Part shown: piece by piece, positions 7,629 through 21,456 of the stretch | Layout of the letters: each line of letters starts with the position of its first letter | Position numbering within the stretch: the stretch's first letter is position 1 | Virus record (IMG/VR): IMGVR_UViG_3300043425_000060 | Location: 1-24,701 of that record | Strand: one strand, 5' to 3' | Length of the DNA: 24,701 nucleotides | From: a virus | Position numbers and translations under genes: made by a program | The notes under the pieces: model-generated | Database searches by the model: none | What the model saw: the letters and a program-made list of their open reading frames with translations, nothing else | What the model was told of the DNA's origin: nothing

Positions 7629-8474
7629 ATGGATAAAGATTTGATTATAGGATGCACCACTAACTACAAGTGGGACACAATTAAATATTGGGTAAACTCT
7701 ATCAATCAGAGTGGTTTTGCTGGTGATAAAGTTTTGATTATGATGAATGCTGACAAATACACTATGGATAAAGTGATTGAAGCAGGCTTCACAATCATTG
7801 GTTTCAATCAAGATGAACAAGGCAACCTTGTTTATGATTCACAATTGATGGTTCATGTCGAACGATTCTTACACATTTTCAATCATCTAAACAAAATCGA
7901 TTACCGTTATGTCATTACGACAGACGTTAAAGATGTTGTATTTCAAAGCAATCCTGTTGAATGGCTTGAGTTCATGCTTGACCCATTGAATCCTATGCAA
8001 TTAGTTTTTGCTAGTGAAAGTATCAAATATAAAGATGAACCTTGGGGTAATCAGAATCTATTAGAAACTTATGGTGAGTATATCTATAATTACTATAAAG
8101 ATAATACGATTTACAATGTAGGAGTATTAGCTGGTCGTGGTTATGCTATGAGAGACTTAGCTATGAATATCTTCCTTGCGTGTTTGAATAAACCTATTCC
8201 TATTACAGACCAATCAACGTTTAATGTGATTACGTCGATGGAGCCTTACAAGTCAACGAGTTACTATATGAATTCTGAAGATGGTTGGGCATGTCAATTA
8301 GGTACGACAGCAGACCCTTCTAAGATTGACGAATTTAGAGATAAATTGTTAGAATCTAGTCCTATCATTGATGGTGATATTGTTAAGACAAGCACAGGAC
8401 ATCCTTTTGTGATTGTTCACCAGTATGACCGAGTGCCAGAATGGCGCAAACTAATTGAGGCAAAATATGGCTAG
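7629..8474 (+). CDS. Putative glycosyltransferase (GT-A-like), first gene of sugar cassette
   Basis: This 281-residue protein looks like a GT-A-fold glycosyltransferase. It starts with the strand DLIIGCTTNYKW, followed by alternating helices and strands, and carries an acidic VITTDVKDVVF segment at about 95-105 that can serve as the metal/nucleotide-binding DxD-like motif. A second conserved-looking element, PITDQSTFN, fits the acceptor side. I cannot name the donor or acceptor. A good GGAG lies about 6 bases upstream. There is no signal peptide or membrane segment, so it should act in the cytoplasm. Its end overlaps the next glycosyltransferase by 8 bases, supporting one operon. Confidence 0.75.
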   Translation: MDKDLIIGCTTNYKWDTIKYWVNSINQSGFAGDKVLIMMNADKYTMDKVIEAGFTIIGFNQDEQGNLVYDSQLMVHVERFLHIFNHLNKIDYRYVITTDVKDVVFQSNPVEWLEFMLDPLNPMQLVFASESIKYKDEPWGNQNLLETYGEYIYNYYKDNTIYNVGVLAGRGYAMRDLAMNIFLACLNKPIPITDQSTFNVITSMEPYKSTSYYMNSEDGWACQLGTTADPSKIDEFRDKLLESSPIIDGDIVKTSTGHPFVIVHQYDRVPEWRKLIEAKYG

Positions 8475-9432
8475 AATTTTATATGTGGTGCATCGCTACG
8501 CACCATTTCCTGGTGGTTCTGAAAACTATGTTCGAGATATGGCTGAAGAGACTCTATCAAGAGGACATGAAGTTTGTGTCTTTACTGGTGAGCATCAAGG
8601 TGATTGGAATGGTGTTCGAGTAACTGATTTAATTAGTGTTCTAAATGAAAAGTGGGATTTGATTGTAATTCATGGTGGTGATGTTGGAGTACAAGATTTT
8701 GTATTACGTCATGCTTCAGCGATTCAATCGCCTATTCTGTTTATGTTGATTGTTCCTTCTGAAAGTCAAACATATCTAAATGCTATTAGAGAATGTGATT
8801 ATATAGGTTGCTCAACAAAAGAAGACTGGAACTATGTAATTGATAAAGGTGTTGTTACTAAGTCTAAAGAGATTAGACATGGTATTGACCCTAAAATCTC
8901 AACAGGACTTCCTGGCTTTAGAGAGAAATACGGAATCAAAACTCAATACATGTTCTTATCATGTGGCGGATATTGGCCTAATAAAGCTATGAAAGAACTT
9001 GTTGATACATTTAATAGACTTGGTCGTGATGATGTCACTTTAGTATTAACTGGTTATGATAACAGACATAATATTAAACCTGAAGAATCAGAATTCGTTA
9101 AACCATTGATGGTTGAGAATCGTGATGATGTCATGTCTGCTATTATGGAATCTGATTTGTATATCATGCATTCACATAAAGAAGGCTTCGGTCTTGTACT
9201 ACTTGAAGCTATGTTAAACAAAACACCTTGGACTTCAAGAAACATTGCAGGTGCTAAACTCTTAAAAGACTTTGGCTTCACATACGAACACGATGAAGAC
9301 TTGTTACAATATATGAAAGAATTCTTAGATGCTGGTTATGTAACAGACGAGAAGATTGATAATGCTTATGAGTTTGTAACATTAAATCACACAATTAAAA
9401 ATACAGTTGACGATATCTTAAAATTACTATGA
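8467..9432 (+). CDS. Glycosyltransferase, GT4-like (GT-B fold)
   Basis: This protein transfers a sugar from an activated donor, by family. It has the GT-B opening ILYVVHRYAPFPGGSENYV, where the Gly-Gly-Ser/Glu loop binds the acceptor side, and the GT4 donor-site motif HKEGFGLVLLEAM at about 237-249 with both E residues of the E-x7-E signature. An IRHGID element and the FLSCGGYWPNKAMKEL start of the second Rossmann domain also fit. The ATG at 8467 is chosen because it aligns with the first strand and has GAGG upstream; an in-frame start at 8455 would add four residues. It overlaps the upstream gene by 8 bases and the downstream gene by 4. Substrates are unknown. Confidence 0.9.
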   Translation: MARILYVVHRYAPFPGGSENYVRDMAEETLSRGHEVCVFTGEHQGDWNGVRVTDLISVLNEKWDLIVIHGGDVGVQDFVLRHASAIQSPILFMLIVPSESQTYLNAIRECDYIGCSTKEDWNYVIDKGVVTKSKEIRHGIDPKISTGLPGFREKYGIKTQYMFLSCGGYWPNKAMKELVDTFNRLGRDDVTLVLTGYDNRHNIKPEESEFVKPLMVENRDDVMSAIMESDLYIMHSHKEGFGLVLLEAMLNKTPWTSRNIAGAKLLKDFGFTYEHDEDLLQYMKEFLDAGYVTDEKIDNAYEFVTLNHTIKNTVDDILKLL

Positions 9433-10052
9433 ATTTTACCTTTGCTATAACAACAGATTATTCCAATATGGAACAAATCTATGAAGTCATTGCTTCGATT
9501 AGAGAATTGAATGTACCTAAGTATGAAATACTACTGATTGGTGACAAACACTTCTATGATGACCCTGATGTTAGATATATACACTTCGATGATACTGAAC
9601 GTAAAGGTTGGGTAACTCGTAAGAAAAATATTCTATGCCAAGAAGCGCAGTATGAGAATATTGTATTGATGCATGACTACTATGTTTTTGATAAAGACTG
9701 GTACAAATCATATCTTGAGTTTGGTGATGATTGGGATGTCTGTTCTAATGCTCAGTTATTGATGAATGGTAAAAGACACTTTACTGATTGGGTAACTTGG
9801 GATTGTCCTTTGTACCCTAGATATACAGCATTACCTTATGATGAATGGGCATTAACTAATTACATGTATCAGTCAGGTGGTTATATGCTAGTCAAGAAAC
9901 ATGTGATGATGACTGAACCATTTAATGAAAATCTAACTTGGGGTCAAGCTGATGATGTGGAATGGTCTCTAAGAATTCGTACTAAATATAAAATGAAATG
10001 TAATGGCAAAGCCATTGTGAGACATAATAAAAGGCATCGTGATTGTGAATAA
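9429..10052 (+). CDS. Glycosyltransferase, GT2-like (GT-A fold), short
   Basis: This 207-residue protein is a compact GT-A glycosyltransferase. It begins with a FTFAITTDYSN strand and has a KGWVTRKKNILCQEA helix typical of GT2 enzymes. A metal-site-like MHDYY lies at about 81-85 and a catalytic-base-like WGQADDVEWSLRI at about 171-183, where the acidic pair replaces the usual E-D. The first ATG overlaps the preceding stop as ATGA, so translation is coupled. No membrane segment is present. The acceptor is unknown. Its C-terminus is basic and overlaps the GTG start of the next gene. Confidence 0.82.
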   Translation: MNFTFAITTDYSNMEQIYEVIASIRELNVPKYEILLIGDKHFYDDPDVRYIHFDDTERKGWVTRKKNILCQEAQYENIVLMHDYYVFDKDWYKSYLEFGDDWDVCSNAQLLMNGKRHFTDWVTWDCPLYPRYTALPYDEWALTNYMYQSGGYMLVKKHVMMTEPFNENLTWGQADDVEWSLRIRTKYKMKCNGKAIVRHNKRHRDCE

Positions 10053-11418
10053 ACTTGTTATATTTGATTTAGATGGTGTATTAATCGACTCTCGAGAATT
10101 ACACTATGAAGCATTAAATGAAGCATTAAATGAAATTGGTGAGCAATATGTTATTAGTCGTGATGAACACTTAAGTTTATATGATGGACTAAGCACAACC
10201 AAAAAATTAAAAATGTTGACCGAAAGAAAAGGTCTTCCTGTTGAATCTCATGATTTGGTTTGGAAAAACAAGCAAAACTCAACTATTAGTTTAGTTTCCG
10301 AACTAAAAATAAACCACACAGCAAGTTATATCTTTGGCCACCTGAAAATGCGTGGTTGGAAGATTGCAGTAGCCTCAAACAGTATTCGAGAGACTGTTCG
10401 TGTTGCACTGCATTCTATTGGTGTTTTAGGTTATGTTGATTACGTAGTCAGTAATGAAGACGTTAAACATACTAAACCACATCCTGAAATGTATTGGAGA
10501 TGCATGATTGCACTTAATGCATTACCTGAAAACACAATTATTGTAGAAGACAGTCATATTGGTCGAGAAGGTGCTATCAAGTCTGGCGGTAATCTTTATC
10601 CAGTTAAGAACGCAGACGATTTAAATGGCAACAGATTTTTACAATACGTTGATGATTTTGAATTGACAAATAAAAATATTAATGTACCATGGAGAAATGA
10701 AAAGATGAATGTATTAATTCCTATGGCTGGTGCTGGCTCTAGATTCGCACAAGCAGGATACACTTTCCCTAAACCTTTGATTGAAGTCAACGGTAAACCT
10801 ATGATTCAAGTTGTAGTTGAAAACTTGAATGTAGAAGCACACTTCATTTACTTGGTACAAAAAGAGCACTATGAGAAATATAATCTTAAACAGTTGCTCA
10901 ATCTAATTACACCTGGTTGCGACATCATTCAAGTTGATGGTGTTACTGATGGTGCCGCAAGAACTACATTGTTAGCAAAAGAATTGATTGATAACGGTGA
11001 GCCTTTATTGATGGCTAACTCAGACCAATATGTTGAATGGAATTCTAATGAAGTGTTGTATGCATTTACTGCCGATGAAGTTGATGGTGGTATCGTAACA
11101 TTCAAAGCAACTCATCCTAAGTGGTCATTCGCTAAGATTGGTGATGATGGTTTCATTTCTGAAGTTGCTGAGAAGAATCCTATTTCTGATAATGCAACAG
11201 TGGGAATCTATTACTGGAAGAAAGGTTCAGACTATGTTAAGTATGCTGAACAAATGATTTCAAAAGACATTCGCACTAATGGTGAATTCTACACATGTCC
11301 TTCATTCAATGAAGCGATTGCTGATGGTAAGAAGATTAGAAACAAATCAATTGAAAAGATGTGGGGTTTAGGTACACCTGAAGACTTACATTATTATTTG
11401 GAGAATCATAGAGTATGA
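10039..11418 (+). CDS. HAD phosphatase fused to sugar-phosphate nucleotidyltransferase
   Basis: This 459-residue protein joins two enzymes. Residues about 1-205 form a HAD hydrolase with DLDGVLIDS (nucleophile D10, D12), VASNS at about 111-115, HTKPHPEMY (Lys at about 146) and VEDSHIG (Asp at about 171), so it likely removes phosphate from a sugar phosphate. Residues 223-459 form a nucleotidyltransferase with MAGAGSRF at about 229-236, FPKPLIEVNGKPMI and a metal-site-like NSDQY at about 328-332, likely making an NDP-sugar. The start is GTG at 10039 or 10045. An internal GGAG about 10 bases before the ATG at 10705 could also produce the nucleotidyltransferase alone. The pair would supply the donor for the neighbouring transferases, which is an inference. 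Confidence 0.9.
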   Translation: MIVNKLVIFDLDGVLIDSRELHYEALNEALNEIGEQYVISRDEHLSLYDGLSTTKKLKMLTERKGLPVESHDLVWKNKQNSTISLVSELKINHTASYIFGHLKMRGWKIAVASNSIRETVRVALHSIGVLGYVDYVVSNEDVKHTKPHPEMYWRCMIALNALPENTIIVEDSHIGREGAIKSGGNLYPVKNADDLNGNRFLQYVDDFELTNKNINVPWRNEKMNVLIPMAGAGSRFAQAGYTFPKPLIEVNGKPMIQVVVENLNVEAHFIYLVQKEHYEKYNLKQLLNLITPGCDIIQVDGVTDGAARTTLLAKELIDNGEPLLMANSDQYVEWNSNEVLYAFTADEVDGGIVTFKATHPKWSFAKIGDDGFISEVAEKNPISDNATVGIYYWKKGSDYVKYAEQMISKDIRTNGEFYTCPSFNEAIADGKKIRNKSIEKMWGLGTPEDLHYYLENHRV

Positions 11419-12155
11419 AAGTAGCCGTTATTTTAACTGGTCATATGCGTAGTTGGGGAAAAGTATTTCCTAACTTTAAAGAAAAAGTACTTGACAAATA
11501 TAATCCTGATGTTTTTATTCACACATGGTCAGACGAAGGTTGGTGGACTCCTGGTGATAAAGTAACTGAAACAGGTGTATTTGATGATAGTCCTGAGATT
11601 AATGTAGGTGCAATCATTCAAGCATATCAACCAAAAGATATTCGACTTGAAGATTGGAACAAAAGAATAATTGATGATGTTCCTTCATTTAACGAACACT
11701 TTGAACAAAGAGGATATGAATATCCTAACTTTGCACATAAACCTAGAAACATTTTAAGTATGTTTTATAAGTTGAGTGAAGGTGTTTCTCTTATGAATAA
11801 CTATGCGGCTAAGAATGGTCAGCAATATGATTTAGTTATTCGTATGAGACCTGATATGATTATTGATGATTTACCTGATTTTGAATTGAACAAGTTCTAC
11901 ACACTTGCTCATAAGAATCATCTTGGTCAAGGTACAGGTGACATGATTCAAGTAGGTAGTGTATTGCAAATGAATCTATTTGCTTTATTACCACAAAATA
12001 TAAACCTTCTATATAATCATACACAGTTATTATGTCCTCATGTATTATCTGAAACATGGATTAATGCATTACATTTAAACTGGGAAGAATTCTCAATCAA
12101 TAAAACTATTATGCATACACCAAAAGGTCCGTATGTGGAAATGACAAATGAATAA
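11415..12155 (+). CDS. Putative polysaccharide-biosynthesis glycosyltransferase-like protein
   Basis: This 246-residue protein has the hallmarks of a poorly characterised glycosyltransferase-like family found in surface polysaccharide clusters: an opening KVAVILTGHMRSW, then YNPDVFIHTW at about 29-38, and RMRPDMII near the middle, where the acidic RPD may serve as the metal site. It overlaps its neighbours by 4 and 8 bases. There is no signal peptide or transmembrane stretch. I place it with the sugar cassette by motifs and context. The donor, acceptor and even the transferase activity are unproven. Confidence 0.75.
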   Translation: MKVAVILTGHMRSWGKVFPNFKEKVLDKYNPDVFIHTWSDEGWWTPGDKVTETGVFDDSPEINVGAIIQAYQPKDIRLEDWNKRIIDDVPSFNEHFEQRGYEYPNFAHKPRNILSMFYKLSEGVSLMNNYAAKNGQQYDLVIRMRPDMIIDDLPDFELNKFYTLAHKNHLGQGTGDMIQVGSVLQMNLFALLPQNINLLYNHTQLLCPHVLSETWINALHLNWEEFSINKTIMHTPKGPYVEMTNE

Positions 12156-12828
12156 TTTCGAAAAGATTGTTACGCTAACAGACGGCCCTGTTCAGTATGA
12201 GATGACTGGTACTAATAATATTAAGATGGTACAGCATCCATATCCATACTCAATTAAAAAAGAAGAGTTTGAATTCTTAACTAAACTGATTGCAGATAAT
12301 AACCTTAAAAATGGATATGAGTGTGCAACAGCTTTTGGTGTAAGTTCACTTGCTATTGGGCTAGGCTTTAAACAAACTGGTGGTAAATGTGTGACTATGG
12401 ATGCATACATTGAAGAAAAGTGTAAGAATCCAGGTAAGTATAAAGACTTCGCTCGTGAAGTTTATGATAAAGCTGATGGTTTTAAATCAGTCAATTATTT
12501 AATTGAAAAATTTGATTTGAAAGACACATTGTATCCTGAAATTGGTTGGAGTCCTGATGATACAGAAACTGCCGTTAGAAAACACATCAAAGAACCTTTA
12601 GATTTTGTGTTCATTGATGCAGGACACTTTCCTGAACAAATGATTAAAGATATTGATGCATTCTTACCATTATTAGGTGAAAAGTATATTTTAGCATTTC
12701 ATGATGTATATGCATGGAGTTTTTCTGAAGCTGTGCATGAACACTTATTCAATAAAATAGGCAAGCGAGTTGAGATTAAAGTTCCTCATCCTGCTGGTGA
12801 AAATTTAGCGATTGTTTGGAATCTATAA
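12148..12828 (+). CDS. SAM-dependent methyltransferase, class I (Methyltransf_24-like)
   Basis: This 226-residue protein is a class I methyltransferase. The SAM-binding region reads GYECATAFGVSSLAIGL at about 56-72, where GxxxG is replaced by a looser A-x-G loop, followed by an acidic residue after strand 2 in CVTMDAY. The DFVFIDAGHFPEQMIKDI stretch matches the strand-4 region of sugar and small-molecule O-methyltransferases in polysaccharide clusters. It could cap or modify the glycan made by the cassette, which is an inference from position. The stop overlaps the next start as TAATG, implying coupled translation. Confidence 0.82.
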   Translation: MNNFEKIVTLTDGPVQYEMTGTNNIKMVQHPYPYSIKKEEFEFLTKLIADNNLKNGYECATAFGVSSLAIGLGFKQTGGKCVTMDAYIEEKCKNPGKYKDFAREVYDKADGFKSVNYLIEKFDLKDTLYPEIGWSPDDTETAVRKHIKEPLDFVFIDAGHFPEQMIKDIDAFLPLLGEKYILAFHDVYAWSFSEAVHEHLFNKIGKRVEIKVPHPAGENLAIVWNL

Positions 12829-13313: not shown

Positions 13314-15137
13314 ATGAAGAAAAAAACAATCAAAGAATTTATTCAAATGCCTATTGATGTTCTGTTCGAACAAATCATTCAAGAAGGTGTTCACGACAAA
13401 GCAATTTTCAAAGCAGTATTCTTAGCTGGTGGTCCTGGTTCTGGTAAAGACTATGTGTTAGACAACACATTGGCAGGTCACGGTTTAACAGAAATCAATT
13501 CAGATAAAGCATTAGAGTACTTGATGGACCGAGAAGGTCTTGATAAACGTATGCCTAAGTCTGAAGAGGATGCACGTAATCTCATTCGTGGTAAAGCAAA
13601 AAACGTTACTGAGTTACGTCAAAGATTAGCACTTCAAGGTCGTAATGGTCTTATCATTAACGGCACAGGTGATGACCCTGAAAAAATCAAAAAGATTAAA
13701 GAACGTTTAGAAGAACTAGGTTATGAATCATCTATGGTGATGGTTAATACTGCCGATGAAGTTTCTAAGCAACGTAATATCGAACGTGGTCAACGTGGCG
13801 GCCGTACAGTTCCTGAAGAAATTAGAAAAGAGAAATGGGATTCAGTACAAGCGGCTAGACCAGAATTAGCAAAACTATTTGGTGATGGTTATAGAGAGTT
13901 TGATAACTCCGAAGATTTAAGACAAGCACCACCAGAGGTTGCTCAACAGAAAAAAGATGAGATGTTAGACATCTATAAAGGTGTTAAAGAGTTTGTAGCT
14001 AAACCTCCTAAACACGAAAATGCTCAAGCATGGATTGCTCAAGAATTACAATCAAAAGACGCACTTAAAGTTAGAAAAGCTGATGTTGGTCGTTTACCAG
14101 CAGACCATGCTGATGAAAAAGGTATGTCTAGTCAAGCTAAACAAATGGGCTTGCAATATCTAGGTTATGGTCGATATGGTAAGAATCATAAAGTTACACA
14201 TCGTGTTGTTAATGGTAAACTAGTAGAAGTGCCTAAAGCACCAGTTGCTCAACCTAGAAATGTTCCTATTACAGGTTCATCTATGTCTGCTAAGAATGTT
14301 AACACATCTAGCAAAGCTAAAGTACCATTAAAAGCAAAAAATGTATTATCTACATTAAAAACAAAAGAAGTTCAAAAAGAAGATATCAATTCTACATTCG
14401 GTCAGTTGTTCAGTGAAAGTTATGAGTTTTCAGATTCTGGTGCTCGTAATCTATTGACGTTAGGTACCGAGATGTCAAACAATGATTCTATTGCAGAATC
14501 TAATTTAGAGTTGACATCTAAACAGATGGAAAATATGAAGTTACTTAAAGATAGTCACGGCAAAGTGAGAATCTTTATGATGCGTCGTTCGGCCACGGAA
14601 CACGCAAATCAAAAAGGTGGTGTTGTTTATAAAGCACCTCGTGGTTATGTTATTAAATTAATGGAGAATGTAAATGAAGAATTTATTGATAAAGATAGTG
14701 GATTGGCTGTTTGGAGTGACGAAGTACGACAAGATGGCAAGAGAACTTTCGGAAGCTTACGTGAAAGCACAGGAAGAAATCGAGAAGAAAGCGGTAGAGG
14801 AATTCTTAGCGAGGGAATCAACGAATGTGCAAGCGACACCAGTTGCGGTTGCTCCGACACAAAAACCAAAAAGTCGCTCAAACAGACGAAGAAAGAATTA
14901 CAGCAAAAGTCAGAAAGTAGCATCAACGAAATAGATGCTGGAACAGAATCAGGTATATCTTTATCTGGATGCGGTGAAAATCCATCAAGAGGTTCTTTAA
15001 GCACTAGAGCAAAGAAGAAACCTTTTGATGAGATGACTGGTGATGAAACCACATATAGTATTGGTGCTCAAAAAGAAGACGAATTAAAGAAACAAGGTAT
15101 TAGTTTATCATCATTCAAATCTAAGAAAGTAGTCTAG
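13314..15137 (+). CDS. P-loop kinase-like (zeta-toxin-like) late phage protein
   Basis: This 607-residue late protein has an N-terminal P-loop domain with AVFLAGGPGSGKDYVLDN (Walker A at about 39-46), a following NSDKALEYL and an arginine-rich RNIERGQRGGRTVPEE lid. It resembles zeta-toxin-type or polynucleotide kinases, but the substrate is unknown. The N-terminus (IKEFIQMPIDVLFEQIIQEG) contains IQE|G at 22-25, fitting a gp21-type prohead protease site. The middle (about 240-450) is linker-rich. The end, FDEMTGDETT to SLSSFKSKK, is of a type I recall in marine phages. Codons about 455-540 overlap a second gene in the +1 frame and have odd codon use and composition there. A virion-packaged enzyme is a plausible inference. 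Confidence 0.85.
   Translation: MKKKTIKEFIQMPIDVLFEQIIQEGVHDKAIFKAVFLAGGPGSGKDYVLDNTLAGHGLTEINSDKALEYLMDREGLDKRMPKSEEDARNLIRGKAKNVTELRQRLALQGRNGLIINGTGDDPEKIKKIKERLEELGYESSMVMVNTADEVSKQRNIERGQRGGRTVPEEIRKEKWDSVQAARPELAKLFGDGYREFDNSEDLRQAPPEVAQQKKDEMLDIYKGVKEFVAKPPKHENAQAWIAQELQSKDALKVRKADVGRLPADHADEKGMSSQAKQMGLQYLGYGRYGKNHKVTHRVVNGKLVEVPKAPVAQPRNVPITGSSMSAKNVNTSSKAKVPLKAKNVLSTLKTKEVQKEDINSTFGQLFSESYEFSDSGARNLLTLGTEMSNNDSIAESNLELTSKQMENMKLLKDSHGKVRIFMMRRSATEHANQKGGVVYKAPRGYVIKLMENVNEEFIDKDSGLAVWSDEVRQDGKRTFGSLRESTGRNREESGRGILSEGINECASDTSCGCSDTKTKKSLKQTKKELQQKSESSINEIDAGTESGISLSGCGENPSRGSLSTRAKKKPFDEMTGDETTYSIGAQKEDELKKQGISLSSFKSKKVV
14674..14934 (+). CDS. Overprinted small gene nested in the kinase-like gene, 86 aa
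   Basis: An 86-residue frame lies wholly inside the kinase-like gene, shifted by +1. GGAGA lies 7 bases before its ATG, a better site than many neighbours have. The product looks designed: a hydrophobic/amphipathic N-terminus (MKNLLIKIVDWLFGV), a charged helix likely to coil (ARELSEAYVKAQEEIEKKAVEEFL), a Pro/Ala/Val/Gln linker and a basic tail (SRSNRRRKNYSKSQK). In the same stretch the host frame is Ser/Gly/Arg/Thr/Cys-rich with codons (agc, gga, acc, tcc, ctc) rare elsewhere, as expected where two frames are constrained. I do not recognise a family. It may bind membrane and nucleic acid, which is an inference. Confidence 0.65.
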   Translation: MKNLLIKIVDWLFGVTKYDKMARELSEAYVKAQEEIEKKAVEEFLARESTNVQATPVAVAPTQKPKSRSNRRRKNYSKSQKVASTK

Positions 15138-15138
15138 C

Positions 15139-15585
15139 ATGAAAAGATTTAAAGATTTAAAAGAAAGCTTAAAGAAAGCTTGTTGGAAAGGCTATGAAGC
15201 AATAGGAACAAAAACCAAGAACGGTAAAGAAGTTCCTAACTGTGTTCCTGTAAAAGAAGAAAATGATGAATATTGTGATGCTTGTGATAGATTAAAAAAA
15301 GATTGTATTTGCGATGAGCAAGTCAAAGAAGACTGGCAAAAAGTAAACAAGGCTGACAACACCGATGGTATGAGCCAAAAAGCAGTCAATGCGTATCGAC
15401 GTGAGAATCCAGGTTCTAAACTGAAAACAGCAGTGACTGAAAAGAATCCTTCAGGTAAACGTGCTTCACGTAGAAAATCATTCTGTGCTCGTATGAGTGG
15501 AATGAAGAGTGCTCATGCAAGTGCTGAGACTAAACGTGACCCCGATAGTCCAATCAATAAAGCATTACGTCGTTGGAGATGCTAA
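15139..15585 (+). CDS. DUF6321-type phage protein with a CWKGYE module and a four-Cys knuckle
   Basis: This 148-residue basic protein has three parts. Residues 1-13 (MKRFKDLKESLKK) resemble a capsid-targeting N-terminus. Residues 15-37 are a CWKGYEAIGTK...NCVPV module that recurs in the protein encoded at 18121. Residues 46-58 (CDACDRLKKDCIC) offer four Cys that could bind zinc. The C-terminal part, from DNTDGMSQKAVNAYRREN to INKALRRWRC, matches the DUF6321 family as I remember it, with KRASRRKSFCARMSGM in the middle. Basic charge and late position fit a DNA-associated internal head protein, but function is unknown. It starts 1 base after the preceding stop. Confidence 0.85.
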   Translation: MKRFKDLKESLKKACWKGYEAIGTKTKNGKEVPNCVPVKEENDEYCDACDRLKKDCICDEQVKEDWQKVNKADNTDGMSQKAVNAYRRENPGSKLKTAVTEKNPSGKRASRRKSFCARMSGMKSAHASAETKRDPDSPINKALRRWRC

Positions 15586-16946: not shown

Positions 16947-18128
16947 ATGTTTACAGATAAACTTACTTTAGCTATCGCAGAGGCCGCTAAGAAGTGTATG
17001 GATGAAGAGTTGAAAGGTAATCAACATAAGATTGATGCTAATAAAAACGGCAAAATCGATGCTGATGATTTTAAAAAACTTCGCAATAAAAAAGAAGTTA
17101 GCGAAGAATTAAAAGGTAATCAACACAAAATCGATGCTAATAAGAATGGCAAGATTGATGCTCAAGACTTTAAACTTCTACGCAAAGAAGATACTGTAAA
17201 CGAAGAAGAAGGACAACACGGATATGTTGCTTTCTCACATGATGGTAAACGACATGAGTTACATGCCAATTCATCATACGAAGCTAAACAAAAAGCTGTA
17301 AAACATTTCAATCCACCTAAATCTAAACAACATTTAGTTACTGTTCATCTTGCACAAAAAGATGGTAAAGATGTAGTTCATAGAGCAGTCGAATCTGTAC
17401 AAGAAGCGGCTATTGATGATTTACGTGACCGTCAAGCGGCTAAACGTGAAGCTAATCCTTATGATTCTAAAGATAAGAAAGAACCAGTTGCACGTAAAGT
17501 TCAAGGTTCTCAATATGGTGGTTCTAAACAAAAACAAGAAAAAGAAGTTGAAGTTAACGAAGCTAAAATGTCTGACGAAGATATGCAACAACGTGAGAAA
17601 ATCGTTAATGGTATGAAAAAGAATCTTAAAGGTTTCAAAGCACGTTATGGCGATGATGCTAAAAAAGTAATGTACGCTACTGCTACTAAACAAGCAATGA
17701 AAGAAGAAGAGCAGTTAGATGAATTATCTAAAGACACTTTAGGTTCATACGTTAAGAAAGCTACAGCAGACAAAGATGATTCTATCAAAAGATATAATAC
17801 TAATGATAGAGATGCTCAAGGAAATAAAGTAAGAGACCAAGACAGAAGTCCTGCAAGAAAAGCTATTGATAATTTGTTAGACAAACGTTCCAATAAACGT
17901 ATTGCTGGTTTAAAAGTTGCAAACGCAAAACTTGCTAAAGAAGAAGCTGATAACGACCAATTCAAAGCTGAATTAGAAGACAACAAAGCTAAAGCCGCAG
18001 GTACTAAGAAACAACCTGATGTACATAAAGCGGCAGTTCAATCAGTTAAACAAGAATCATTTAGCGAAAAACTTTCTACACTTAAAGAAAGTGTTCGTTC
18101 ATTCTTAAAAGGTAAGAACAATGGCTAA
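16947..18128 (+). CDS. Mosaic late protein with dockerin/EF-hand-like tandem repeats
   Basis: This 393-residue hydrophilic protein is a string of short modules I recall scattered among marine T4-like phage proteins. Residues 21-46 and 54-79 are tandem copies of a calcium-loop motif, KIDANKNGKIDA-x-DF, with EF-hand/dockerin spacing. Residues about 88-145 are a GYVAFSHDG module. Residues about 206-252 are KMSDEDMQQREKIVNGMKKN to YATATKQ. Residues about 255-280 are EQLDELSKDTLGSYVKK. Module borders carry V-x-E or L-x-E (VSE, VNE, VQE, VNE, LDE), often followed by Ala, like prohead protease sites; IAE|A lies at 10-13. AAGGAA supports the start. It overlaps the next gene by 8 bases. Function is unknown; an internal head polyprotein is my inference. 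Confidence 0.8.
   Translation: MFTDKLTLAIAEAAKKCMDEELKGNQHKIDANKNGKIDADDFKKLRNKKEVSEELKGNQHKIDANKNGKIDAQDFKLLRKEDTVNEEEGQHGYVAFSHDGKRHELHANSSYEAKQKAVKHFNPPKSKQHLVTVHLAQKDGKDVVHRAVESVQEAAIDDLRDRQAAKREANPYDSKDKKEPVARKVQGSQYGGSKQKQEKEVEVNEAKMSDEDMQQREKIVNGMKKNLKGFKARYGDDAKKVMYATATKQAMKEEEQLDELSKDTLGSYVKKATADKDDSIKRYNTNDRDAQGNKVRDQDRSPARKAIDNLLDKRSNKRIAGLKVANAKLAKEEADNDQFKAELEDNKAKAAGTKKQPDVHKAAVQSVKQESFSEKLSTLKESVRSFLKGKNNG
17004..17183 (+). repeat. Tandem direct repeat encoding two calcium-loop modules
   Basis: Two copies of about 81 bases lie at 17004-17084 and 17103-17183, offset by 99 bases, inside one reading frame. They encode nearly identical residues but differ mainly at third codon positions (for example aacggcaaaatcgat against aatggcaagattgat). 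Protein-level selection on an old duplication, not recent slippage, is the simplest reading. Confidence 0.85.
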
Positions 18129-19191
18129 AAAGTTTTCAGACGTATTCAGTAGCATTAAATATGCTAAGATGCAACCAAAACATGATAAAGGTCATGTTGG
18201 TGGTTCTACTGATGATGAAGAACATGGTGCAGTGAGTGAATTAGAATTTGGTCAACAAGTTGCTCATGCCAAGAAACGCTCTATGACTGAGAGTGAAGCA
18301 GTTAAACGCACTCAAACAAACTTGAAGAACATTGAAGCTTCTAAGACTGGTTATTCTGCTGATGATGAAGAATATAGAAAACACATCGAAAGAATGAAAA
18401 AGTCACGTGATGAATATTTGAGAAACAATCCAAATACCATTTATAAACGTAACGAAGAAGTAGAATTTACTCAAGAACAGATTGAAGAAGCGATTGACCA
18501 CGTTATCACTGCTAGACAGATTATCGGTCATGCTAAAAAGACACCTGGTGGTAGTCATGAATATATGAAGTTTCTAAAATCACTTAGAGATAAGTTTGGT
18601 AAAGAGTATTCAACTAATGTACATCAAACAGCTTCTAAACTTGCTACAGAAGAAGTTGAACAGATTGATGAAGTTTCACTAGACACAGCACGTGAAGTGC
18701 ATAAAGCACGTTTCAGTAACTGGGAAAAAGCTAAGAAGTCTGGTGATAAAGAAGCTATTCAAAAGACTCAAGGTAAAATGGTAAAATCTTTCGCTCACGT
18801 TAAAGCAAAAGACAGTAAAGAATTAAAGAAAACTACTGACAAATTACCTAAGTCACCAGAAGAAATTAATAAGATGCATAGTGACCGTTATGAATATAAC
18901 AAAAAGAAGGGATATTCAAACGAGTCTGTAGAAGTTAATGAAGCTGAGAAAATGAAGGGTGAAGACCCTTGTTGGAAAGGCTATGAAATGGTTGGAACTA
19001 AAAAGAAAAATGGTAAAGAAGTTCCTAACTGTGTACCTGTAAACGAATCACGTCAAGCAGATATCGTTAAAGATACAGTAAAAAAAGCAAAACAAAAGAA
19101 AAAAGATTTAAACAATGATAAAGATGTATCAGGGAAAGTAGAGAAATTTGAATCTGACCCTCAATTGACAGACACATTACAAAAACAATAA
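18121..19191 (+). CDS. Mosaic late protein sharing modules with its neighbours
   Basis: This 356-residue charged protein has no recognised fold. It shares two modules with nearby genes: EQIDEVSLDTAREVHKARF at about 180-198 parallels EQLDELSKDTLGSYVKKA in the previous protein, and CWKGYEMVGTK...NCVPV at about 284-307 parallels residues 15-38 of the protein at 15139. V-x-E, I-x-E or L-x-E sites flank modules (VSE, IEE, IDE, VNE|A, VNE|S). The rest is helical and rich in Lys and Glu with low hydrophobicity, including GHAKKTPGGSHEYMKFLKSL. It overlaps the upstream gene by 8 bases. It is probably packaged with or near DNA, which is an inference. Confidence 0.8.
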   Translation: MAKKFSDVFSSIKYAKMQPKHDKGHVGGSTDDEEHGAVSELEFGQQVAHAKKRSMTESEAVKRTQTNLKNIEASKTGYSADDEEYRKHIERMKKSRDEYLRNNPNTIYKRNEEVEFTQEQIEEAIDHVITARQIIGHAKKTPGGSHEYMKFLKSLRDKFGKEYSTNVHQTASKLATEEVEQIDEVSLDTAREVHKARFSNWEKAKKSGDKEAIQKTQGKMVKSFAHVKAKDSKELKKTTDKLPKSPEEINKMHSDRYEYNKKKGYSNESVEVNEAEKMKGEDPCWKGYEMVGTKKKNGKEVPNCVPVNESRQADIVKDTVKKAKQKKKDLNNDKDVSGKVEKFESDPQLTDTLQKQ

Positions 19192-19217: not shown

Positions 19218-19556
19218 ATGTCTTTATGGTCAACTACAGATGCTAACACTGGTGCACCAAAATTTGCAGTAGCAGGTGGTCTAGGTCTAGCACAAAACGG
19301 TGATGCATTATATGCTAACACAACAGTTGGTGCCTTTAAATCAGGTATCGCAGTTGGTGTATTTGGTGTAGATGCTGTCGAAGCTAACTTGCCAGCTAAC
19401 AAAGCTAACAAACCAGCACATACTGGTTGGGTATTGCGTAAAGTTGGTTCAGGTGGTCGTGCAGGTCGTGTTCAAACTGAAGTATTAGTTGCTGGTGGTA
19501 TGGGTGCCGACAACACAATTTCAGCTAATGATAACGTTGTATACGCTAACACATAA
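19218..19556 (+). CDS. Conserved small virion-type protein, 112 aa
   Basis: This 112-residue Gly/Ala-rich protein is of a type I recall as abundant in marine T4-like phages. It opens MSLWSTTDANTGAPKFAV, has a middle GIAVGVFGVDAVEA, and ends with HTGWVLRKVGSGGRAGRVQTEVLVA. It is low in charge and likely beta-rich, consistent with a small structural or decoration protein. It has its own late promoter candidate and a strong AGGAG, which suggests high expression. Its stop and the next start overlap by one base as TAATG. Exact function is unknown. Confidence 0.82.
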   Translation: MSLWSTTDANTGAPKFAVAGGLGLAQNGDALYANTTVGAFKSGIAVGVFGVDAVEANLPANKANKPAHTGWVLRKVGSGGRAGRVQTEVLVAGGMGADNTISANDNVVYANT

Positions 19557-20032
19557 TGAGTTTTAAAAACTTTTTAAAAGAATTCTATAATATTGAAACG
19601 AGTCAGGCTTTCAAAGCACATGAGCCTGACGACTCTCAATCATCTAGTATTCTTAATAATGAGGTGATTTCTAAAATCAACGTTCAGTTATCAACTGAGT
19701 TGAATGAAAGAACATTATCACCACAAACTGGAATTCAAAAGATTCGTAAAGTATTACATTCTTTTGCATTAGACTTTCCTGTATCATATGATATTGATTC
19801 AGAAGGTGACGAAGTTGTTTTTGAAACTAACCAGTTTGGTAAAGCATATGGACCAACACCAACTTCTACAGATATGACTCATGAAGAAGATGATGTTGCT
19901 TATGTTTACGTTCTATACTATCTTACTGATGAAGGCTACTATGAATTTTATGCTGAAGTATCAAAAGAATATTCTAGAATGGAAGAATTACTAAACGATG
20001 GTTTAGAGGACGAAGACGAAAACGAAGAATAA
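19556..20032 (+). CDS. Conserved hypothetical late protein with capsid-targeting-like N-terminus, 158 aa
   Basis: This 158-residue acidic protein starts MSFKNFLKEF, again like the T4 capsid-targeting N-terminus with LKE as a possible protease site. The middle (SPQTGIQKIRKVLHSFALD, FPVSYDIDSEGDEVVFE, FGKAYGPTP) and YVLYYLTDEGYYEFYAEV match a conserved marine T4-like phage protein from memory. The C-terminus is a highly acidic tail (EDEDENEE). There is no signal or membrane stretch. Coupled translation with the previous gene suggests a shared assembly role, not proven. Confidence 0.8.
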   Translation: MSFKNFLKEFYNIETSQAFKAHEPDDSQSSSILNNEVISKINVQLSTELNERTLSPQTGIQKIRKVLHSFALDFPVSYDIDSEGDEVVFETNQFGKAYGPTPTSTDMTHEEDDVAYVYVLYYLTDEGYYEFYAEVSKEYSRMEELLNDGLEDEDENEE

Positions 20033-20752: not shown

Positions 20753-21199
20753 ATGTGGCTTTTGTCATGGCTTCCTGATTGGATATTTCATTTAATTACA
20801 TTCTTAGGTTTACTAGGAATCATAGCAAGTATCATATTAGATTACATTCCTTTTGTAGGAAAATACAAACTACCTCTTCAAGTAGTAGCAGTACTACTGT
20901 TGACTTTTGGTGTGTGGTTTGAAGGTGGTATGAGTAACGAAGCCATTTGGCAAGAAAGAGTAACTAAACTTCAAGCTGAGATTGCTCAGAAAGAAGTACA
21001 GTCAGCTAAAGCTAACGTAGAGATTCAGACTAAATTAATTGAAAAGATTAAGGTAGTCAAAGAAGTAGAATATAAGATTAAAGAAGTAATCAAAGAACAC
21101 GAAACTATTATTGATGCAGAGTGTAAAGTTGTTCCTGAAGTGATTGATATTTTAAATGCTTCAGCAACAAATCAACTTTATGTGGAGAATAACAAATGA
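20753..21199 (+). CDS. Inner-membrane spanin (Rz-like), two N-terminal membrane segments
   Basis: This 148-residue protein fits an i-spanin, the inner-membrane partner that fuses membranes in the last step of Gram-negative host lysis. It has hydrophobic segments at about 11-29 and 41-56 and a long coiled coil at about 65-120. A conserved-looking end, DAECKVVPEVIDILNASA, resembles the Rz C-terminal region. Two hydrophobic segments instead of the usual one are unusual for lambda Rz, but I recall this form in marine phages. The stop overlaps the start of an outer-membrane lipoprotein gene, the usual two-component arrangement. It implies a host with an outer membrane. Confidence 0.82.
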   Translation: MWLLSWLPDWIFHLITFLGLLGIIASIILDYIPFVGKYKLPLQVVAVLLLTFGVWFEGGMSNEAIWQERVTKLQAEIAQKEVQSAKANVEIQTKLIEKIKVVKEVEYKIKEVIKEHETIIDAECKVVPEVIDILNASATNQLYVENNK

Positions 21200-21456
21200 A
21201 AACATTAATGTTATTACCTGTATTGATGTTAGTTGGATGTTCAGTATTAGTTCCTGTGAAGCAAAAGTTTCCTGATGCTCCGCCTGAATTACTTACTAGT
21301 TGTAATGAACTTAAATTATTAGAAAGAAACACAACGAAGTTATCTGTGGTCGTTGAATCTGTGGTTGAAAATTATGCCTCATATCATGAGTGTCGAATTA
21401 GACTTGAGACGTGGAAAGAATGGTATGAAACTCAAAAATCTATTTTTGACAAATAA
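21196..21456 (+). CDS. Outer-membrane spanin lipoprotein (Rz1-like)
   Basis: This 86-residue protein starts with a lipoprotein signal, MKTLMLLPVLMLVGCS, with lipobox L-V-G-C at 12-15 and Ser after Cys, which favours the outer membrane. The mature part opens with a Pro-containing VPVKQKFPDAPPELLTSC stretch and then a helical region. It is longer than lambda Rz1 and does not sit inside the i-spanin gene but overlaps it by 4 bases. Together with the upstream gene it should bridge the periplasm and fuse the membranes after cell-wall breakdown. Two further Cys could form disulfides. Confidence 0.85.
   Translation: MKTLMLLPVLMLVGCSVLVPVKQKFPDAPPELLTSCNELKLLERNTTKLSVVVESVVENYASYHECRIRLETWKEWYETQKSIFDK

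Follow-up and report, generated by a model that had tools for sequence, protein, structure and literature searches.

The question raised by this locus is whether a single stretch of phage DNA is used as coding sequence in two reading frames at once. The window, meaning the whole stretch of DNA that was analysed, is a 24.7-kb viral fragment (24,701 nucleotides), and within it a small open reading frame lies wholly inside a longer one. The outer gene is a continuous 607-codon ORF on the plus strand (13314..15137; 607 aa) with homologues in IMG/VR, and the nested gene, on the same strand, occupies its +1 frame from ATG to TAG (14674..14934; 86 aa, MKNLLIKIVDWLFGVTKYDKMARELSEAYVKAQEEIEKKAVEEFLARESTNVQATPVAVAPTQKPKSRSNRRRKNYSKSQKVASTK), with a Shine-Dalgarno sequence, GGAGA (14663..14667, plus strand), six bases before the ATG. 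The original prediction had proposed an 86-codon gene with its own GGAGA site inside a 607-codon gene, and the coordinates, the ATG, the TAG and the GGAGA were all confirmed.

The window carries genes for a DNA polymerase, a UvsX-like recombinase, a DnaB-like helicase and a primase, and its DNA polymerase is at most 49% identical to that of any named phage, with Prochlorococcus phages coming first. The source locus is assigned to T4-like phages distantly related to marine cyanophages. Gene order was kept in the six loci examined, where the genes, named by sequence resemblance only in the relatives, run from mostly sugar- or methyltransferase-type genes through the outer gene to a DUF6321-type gene, usually followed by a virion structural protein, an EF-hand-like protein and a CWPGYK-type protein. 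A run of glycosyltransferase-, HAD/nucleotidyltransferase- and methyltransferase-like genes lies upstream of the outer gene in the window (7629-12828), and sugar- or methyltransferase-type genes seem to sit upstream in the relatives too. The DUF6321 neighbour also occurs in AG-341-P01, AG-345-O18 and Synechococcus phage DSL-LC02, with no nested homologue in the stretches read. Short modules recur in the neighbouring proteins of the window (15139-15585, 16947-18128 and 18121-19191), namely CWKGYE..GTKxKNGKEVPNCVP and the EF-hand-like repeats ELKGNQHKIDxNKNGKID, and SITGDTxEEV and LLTLGKxM modules recur in neighbouring proteins of the relatives; these recurrences suggest a shuffling of small domains among neighbouring proteins. 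Starts resembling MKxFxxFxxE are found in neighbours in the window (15139-15585, 19556-20032) and in the relatives' loci, as if these genes formed a head-packaged, capsid-targeted cluster, and adjacent i-spanin-like and o-spanin-like genes with PHROG Rz-like matches lie at 20753-21456.

Relatives were collected by scanning IMG/VR with the outer protein and also with its C-terminal block. Counting only distinct outer C-termini gave 98 homologues, whose C-terminal block is approximately 45-67% identical to that of the window. A +1-frame ORF is present at the same place in 95 of the 98, ending in each just 5' of a conserved ESIDKG/INEID motif, with a length of 55 to 102 aa (median 73) across the 65 loci measured. 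The layout of the product is shared among these relatives, with a MLKFLKNLFKKK-like or MKYIHLIILRLKQFMDRI-like start, a Pro/Glu/Val- or Pro/Glu/Gln-rich linker and a KSPSPKSGPKKKK-like tail. A hidden Markov model made without the window sequence ranked the window's nested ORF first (E=1e-5 to 3e-6) among 162 window ORFs of at least 40 codons, delimited stop to stop, the next best having E-values of 0.4-0.9. The nested start and stop, whose retention in relatives had been proposed as a check, are therefore kept in 95 of 98 distinct homologues. An intact outer gene with a nested frame full of stops, the pattern named beforehand as telling against the prediction, was not seen, and the three homologues without a nested ORF miss the whole segment. 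Beyond this group, none of 50,697 phage records was hit by tblastn with either the nested protein or the outer C-terminal block, and only the kinase domain and small fragments matched named phages. A scan of GTDB genomes with the outer C-terminal block gave no relatives, and a nested-profile scan of IMG/VR recovered the window copy only, because the conserved stretches are too degenerate. A literature search, with most subscription journals outside its scope, found no report of the nested gene.

The outer codons around the nested start carry a mark of its initiation site. The Glu codon overlying the nested Shine-Dalgarno sequence is GAG in 83 of 84 nested-bearing loci, compared with 21% elsewhere in these genes (p=5e-55, a value overstated in that related sequences are not independent), and is GAA in L171, a homologue without the nested gene. 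The Shine-Dalgarno core is present in all 84 of the nested-bearing loci, with the first ATG 5-9 nt later in 67 of them. By these sequence measures the nested start region is under constraint, and the nested gene is presumably translated from the mRNA of the outer gene via its own ribosome-binding site, start and stop.

The outer protein is composed of a capsid-targeting-like N-terminus, an AAA_33/Zeta-like P-loop kinase domain, a modular linker and a conserved C-terminal block. The kinase domain (residues 33-181; 13410..13856, plus strand) was identified by Pfam matches to PF06414 (E=5e-14) and PF13671 (E=3e-9), and in other homologues it is preceded by a cytidylyltransferase-like domain (L013, by Pfam; L160, by a weak NCBIfam match). 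The marine T4-like phages HTVC008M and Melnitz have a homologous Zeta/AAA_33 kinase domain with 38-40% identity; the match extends only to query residue 244-248, far short of the overlap region and the C-terminal block. Directly 5' of the overlap, alignment and AlphaFold (pLDDT mostly 81-96) delimit a small folded module (14523..14660, plus strand), closed by a Y-V-I-K-L motif whose codons run into the nested Shine-Dalgarno site. Across the overlap itself (14673..14934, plus strand) the outer frame is a Ser/Gly/Arg/Cys-rich linker that is predicted to be largely disordered, with pLDDT below 50 for the residues covering most of it, although the AlphaFold models are of modest confidence (32 and 47 sequences, pTM 0.27). 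The linker is followed by the C-terminal block (INEIDAG...TGDETTYSIGAQKEDELKKQGISL; 14929..15134, plus strand), which the alignment shows to be conserved, as the original prediction had supposed; a Foldseek comparison of the outer C-terminal model with the PDB gave no significant match. The capsid targeting sequence of T4 is an N-terminal MKxxxxFxxE motif. By a permissive regular expression, MKFRDFLREQ-like or MKFRDFLxE-like starts are found in 88 of 92 complete outer homologues; the window's own N-terminus, MKKKTIKEFIQ, is a weaker match to the motif, and its regular-expression match falls at an internal Met. From this N-terminal motif and the neighbouring genes, we infer that the outer protein is of virion type and packaged in the head.

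The three exceptional homologues bear on the origin of the segment. L147 and L170 read ...YFVKLKTKKTI(N/S)EIDYG... and L171 reads ...YVIKLKESIDKG..., in each case with the outer gene intact and everything from nested start to nested stop missing. In these three homologues, from two lineages, the segment and the nested ORF are absent together and the outer gene is still read in frame, so that the segment behaves as a removable unit; the nested product is evidently not essential in every lineage. In a quick tree made from the other alignment columns the absences form two distinct lineages, each placed within a group that carries the nested gene, although support for one of these placements is only 87%. 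Two losses of an old gene are the simplest reading of this tree, which is favoured over recent birth. A separate small gene may instead have been inserted into the outer gene and captured in frame, an account of origin that is compatible with dual coding and is entertained here tentatively. In favour of a captured insertion, presence and absence of the segment coincide with the nested gene from Shine-Dalgarno site to stop, every homologue that has the outer segment also has the nested ORF, and the outer segment is of low complexity and predicted to be disordered. Against it, no stand-alone nested copy was found in any of the fetched loci, the absences appear on the tree as two losses from a clade that otherwise bears the nested gene, and codon usage gives no sign of which frame is older. 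The nested gene may thus have originated either by overprinting, that is de novo birth, or by captured insertion. It is conceivable, if doubtful, that the nested gene is a portable unit, stop-free in two frames from Shine-Dalgarno site to stop, whose clean gain and loss is accommodated by the disordered hinge of another gene, which it leaves unbroken.

The nested product belongs to a protein family absent from the libraries searched, with profile searches of Pfam, PHROGs, NCBIfam, PADLOC and the PDB returning no family for it, and the earlier statement that it is of no known family stands. Residues 2-48 (14677..14817, plus strand) are predicted to form a long helix with an amphipathic or hydrophobic start (pLDDT 76-88 over residues 1-40), and residues 62-86 (14857..14931, plus strand) a basic Lys/Arg/Ser tail with a net charge of +10 that is predicted to be disordered. 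The model as a whole has a mean pLDDT of 69 and a pTM of 0.27, with low confidence in the tail. A structured product had been anticipated, and the relatives do share an amphipathic or hydrophobic N-terminus, a Pro-rich linker and a basic tail, with the model giving an N-terminal helix. The mean best 19-residue hydropathy of the nested products is 0.54, and in the hydropathy scan most members had no segment long enough for a clear transmembrane helix. On the strength of composition and a helix modelled with modest confidence, a small late accessory role is tentatively suggested, in which the helix would contact a membrane surface or the outer protein and the tail would contact nucleic acid; an accessory role at the membrane periphery or in association with nucleic acid is the most parsimonious guess, although a guess with less than even prospects. 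It is very improbable that the product is instead an antitoxin or regulator of the outer Zeta-like kinase, comparable to epsilon for zeta. Nesting inside a gene with a Zeta_toxin/AAA_33 domain would tie the stoichiometry of such a pair, but the small partner does not always accompany the kinase: L147, L170 and L171 are without the nested gene and L171 nevertheless keeps its kinase domain, L021 carries the nested gene but gives no Pfam kinase match, and the kinase relatives in HTVC008M and Melnitz end before the overlap region. An epsilon/zeta pair was rejected on these grounds. An embedded o-spanin of the Rz1 type was also rejected, given that the nested products contain approximately 0.1% Cys with no PHROG spanin match, that the outer gene is of kinase type and that the window's spanins lie elsewhere, as was a T4-type capsid-targeted protein, given nested N-termini of the MLKFLKNLF or MKYIHLIILRLKQF kind with no MKxxxxFxxE.

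Selection in the two frames was measured across 26 disjoint sequence pairs differing by 3-34% at the nucleotide level, with dual-frame rates obtained by a counting method and a bootstrap over pairs rather than by a full likelihood model. The window is not among these pairs, since its nearest relatives are too divergent for synonymous changes to be counted pairwise, and so inherits the result by homology. At outer third positions the difference is 13.4% in the overlap, compared with 23.5% upstream of it and 25.5% downstream. Differences at outer first positions, which are the nested wobble positions, go up from about 9-10% to 13.5% in the overlap. Where the outer codons are identical in amino acid, synonymous differences are 19.6% upstream, 9.8% in the overlap and 23.4% downstream, and synonymous change is lowered in the overlap in 23 of the 26 pairs (Wilcoxon p=4.6e-5). 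The boundaries of this effect are sharp: synonymous change is 18.8% over the ten codons that precede the nested start and 1.4% over the ten that follow it, and at the nested stop it climbs from 13.5% to 32.7%. The synonymous constraint and per-frame rates that had been proposed as checks both came out on the side of the nested gene: outer synonymous change halves exactly between nested start and stop, and nested dNN/dNS in the overlap is 0.60 (CI 0.47-0.73), as against 1.17 and 1.13 for the +1 frame in the flanks and 1.38 for the +2 frame in the overlap. Outer dNN/dSN in the overlap is 0.62 (0.46-0.79). Within the overlap, control lies with the nested frame over its first 15 codons, where outer dNN/dSN is 1.49, not below 1, and is shared by both frames over its last 25.

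Resampling and codon usage give a second view of the same overlap. When codons were resampled under a fixed outer protein, 2% of trials kept the window's nested frame free of stops. When the nested protein was the one held constant, the outer frame of the window survived in 0 of 3000 trials, and at no locus did it survive in more than 0.6%. The outer frame is thus open beyond chance, which indicates that it is maintained too. Outer codon use in the overlap is atypical across the relatives (ACC 0.66 vs 0.10, CTC 0.50 vs 0.05, GGA 0.57 vs 0.12, GCC 0.55 vs 0.12) and the outer residues there are enriched in Ser, Thr and Arg, which bears out the odd codons and skewed residues described in the window. 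These sequence comparisons make it highly probable that both frames are coding and that each is kept by selection, i.e. that dual coding is conserved.

Attributing the synonymous constraint to an RNA element or an antisense ORF, and not to a nested protein, is still harder to sustain than an antitoxin role. A 135-codon antisense ORF does cover the overlap in the window (14645-15052, minus strand), and in 52 of 95 loci one of the antisense frames runs for 80 codons or more without a stop. However, by the geometry of the frames this antisense frame and the outer frame have their wobble position in common, so that the antisense frame cannot reduce change at outer wobble sites. In L038, a close relative of the window, it extends for just 29 codons, and the constraint separates nested synonymous from nested nonsynonymous sites, as the dNN/dNS of 0.60 records; indels keep the +1 frame, and the Shine-Dalgarno core is kept before the ATG. 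The antisense reading was rejected on the wobble geometry, the short frame in L038 and the nested-frame rates, and the antisense ORF is probably a by-product, because its wobble base is shared with the outer frame. Least probable of all is a +1 ORF that is open solely from the composition of the outer gene. For a given outer protein, a stop-free +1 frame of this length is no great rarity at a single locus (0.25% to 82%, median approximately 8%). But 95 of 98 homologues keep the Shine-Dalgarno site, start, stop and layout, and this conservation, the synonymous constraint with exact boundaries, the +1-specific purifying selection and the codon bias at the Shine-Dalgarno site led to the rejection of a chance open frame.

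Under conserved dual coding, the same bases would encode two proteins that selection keeps. The outer would be a multidomain protein, with its kinase and its conserved C-terminal block, that is probably packaged in the head, and a disordered hinge would join these two conserved parts, with the nested gene occupying the +1 frame of the hinge. The nested product would begin with an amphipathic helix, resting on the outer protein or at the surface of a membrane, and continue through a flexible linker rich in Pro to a Lys-rich tail that would bind nucleic acid.

Small genes embedded in larger ones are familiar from phiX174, with E in D and B in A, and the principle of overprinting is common to the nested gene described here. 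Unlike phiX174, with its small ssDNA genome and strong size limits, the genomes here are large, with several related contigs of 160-170 kb, and packing economy is accordingly a weak reason for the overlap. The lambda Rz/Rz1 spanins are a complete small +1 gene inside a longer gene with both products used, and embedded phage genes are often missed by gene callers (PMC6139136). The nested gene resembles Rz1 within Rz in its +1 dual coding, but is not a member of the spanin family: o-spanins are outer-membrane lipoproteins, whereas the nested product is without a lipobox or signal and has almost no Cys, the outer gene is of kinase type with a removable linker as its overlap, and the window has its separate Rz-like pair at 20753-21456. 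T4 internal head proteins bear a capsid targeting sequence (PMC3012670), which the MKFRDFLxE-like N-termini of the outer proteins resemble, and the basic nested tail recalls the lysine-DNA contacts of these proteins; unlike them, the nested product has no such N-terminus.

What is new is an unlisted protein family, its location in a hinge, predicted to be disordered, between the domains of a larger protein, and a segment that is either wholly present or wholly absent. Few genes that lie completely within another, are well supported and have been conserved across a wide divergence are documented in large DNA phages, and the combination of 26 usable pairs, near-exact boundaries and natural versions with and without the segment makes the origin and persistence of overlaps testable. 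L147, L170 and L171 are natural comparison genomes for the role of the nested product, and the locus suggests that more such genes may be hidden in disordered linkers.
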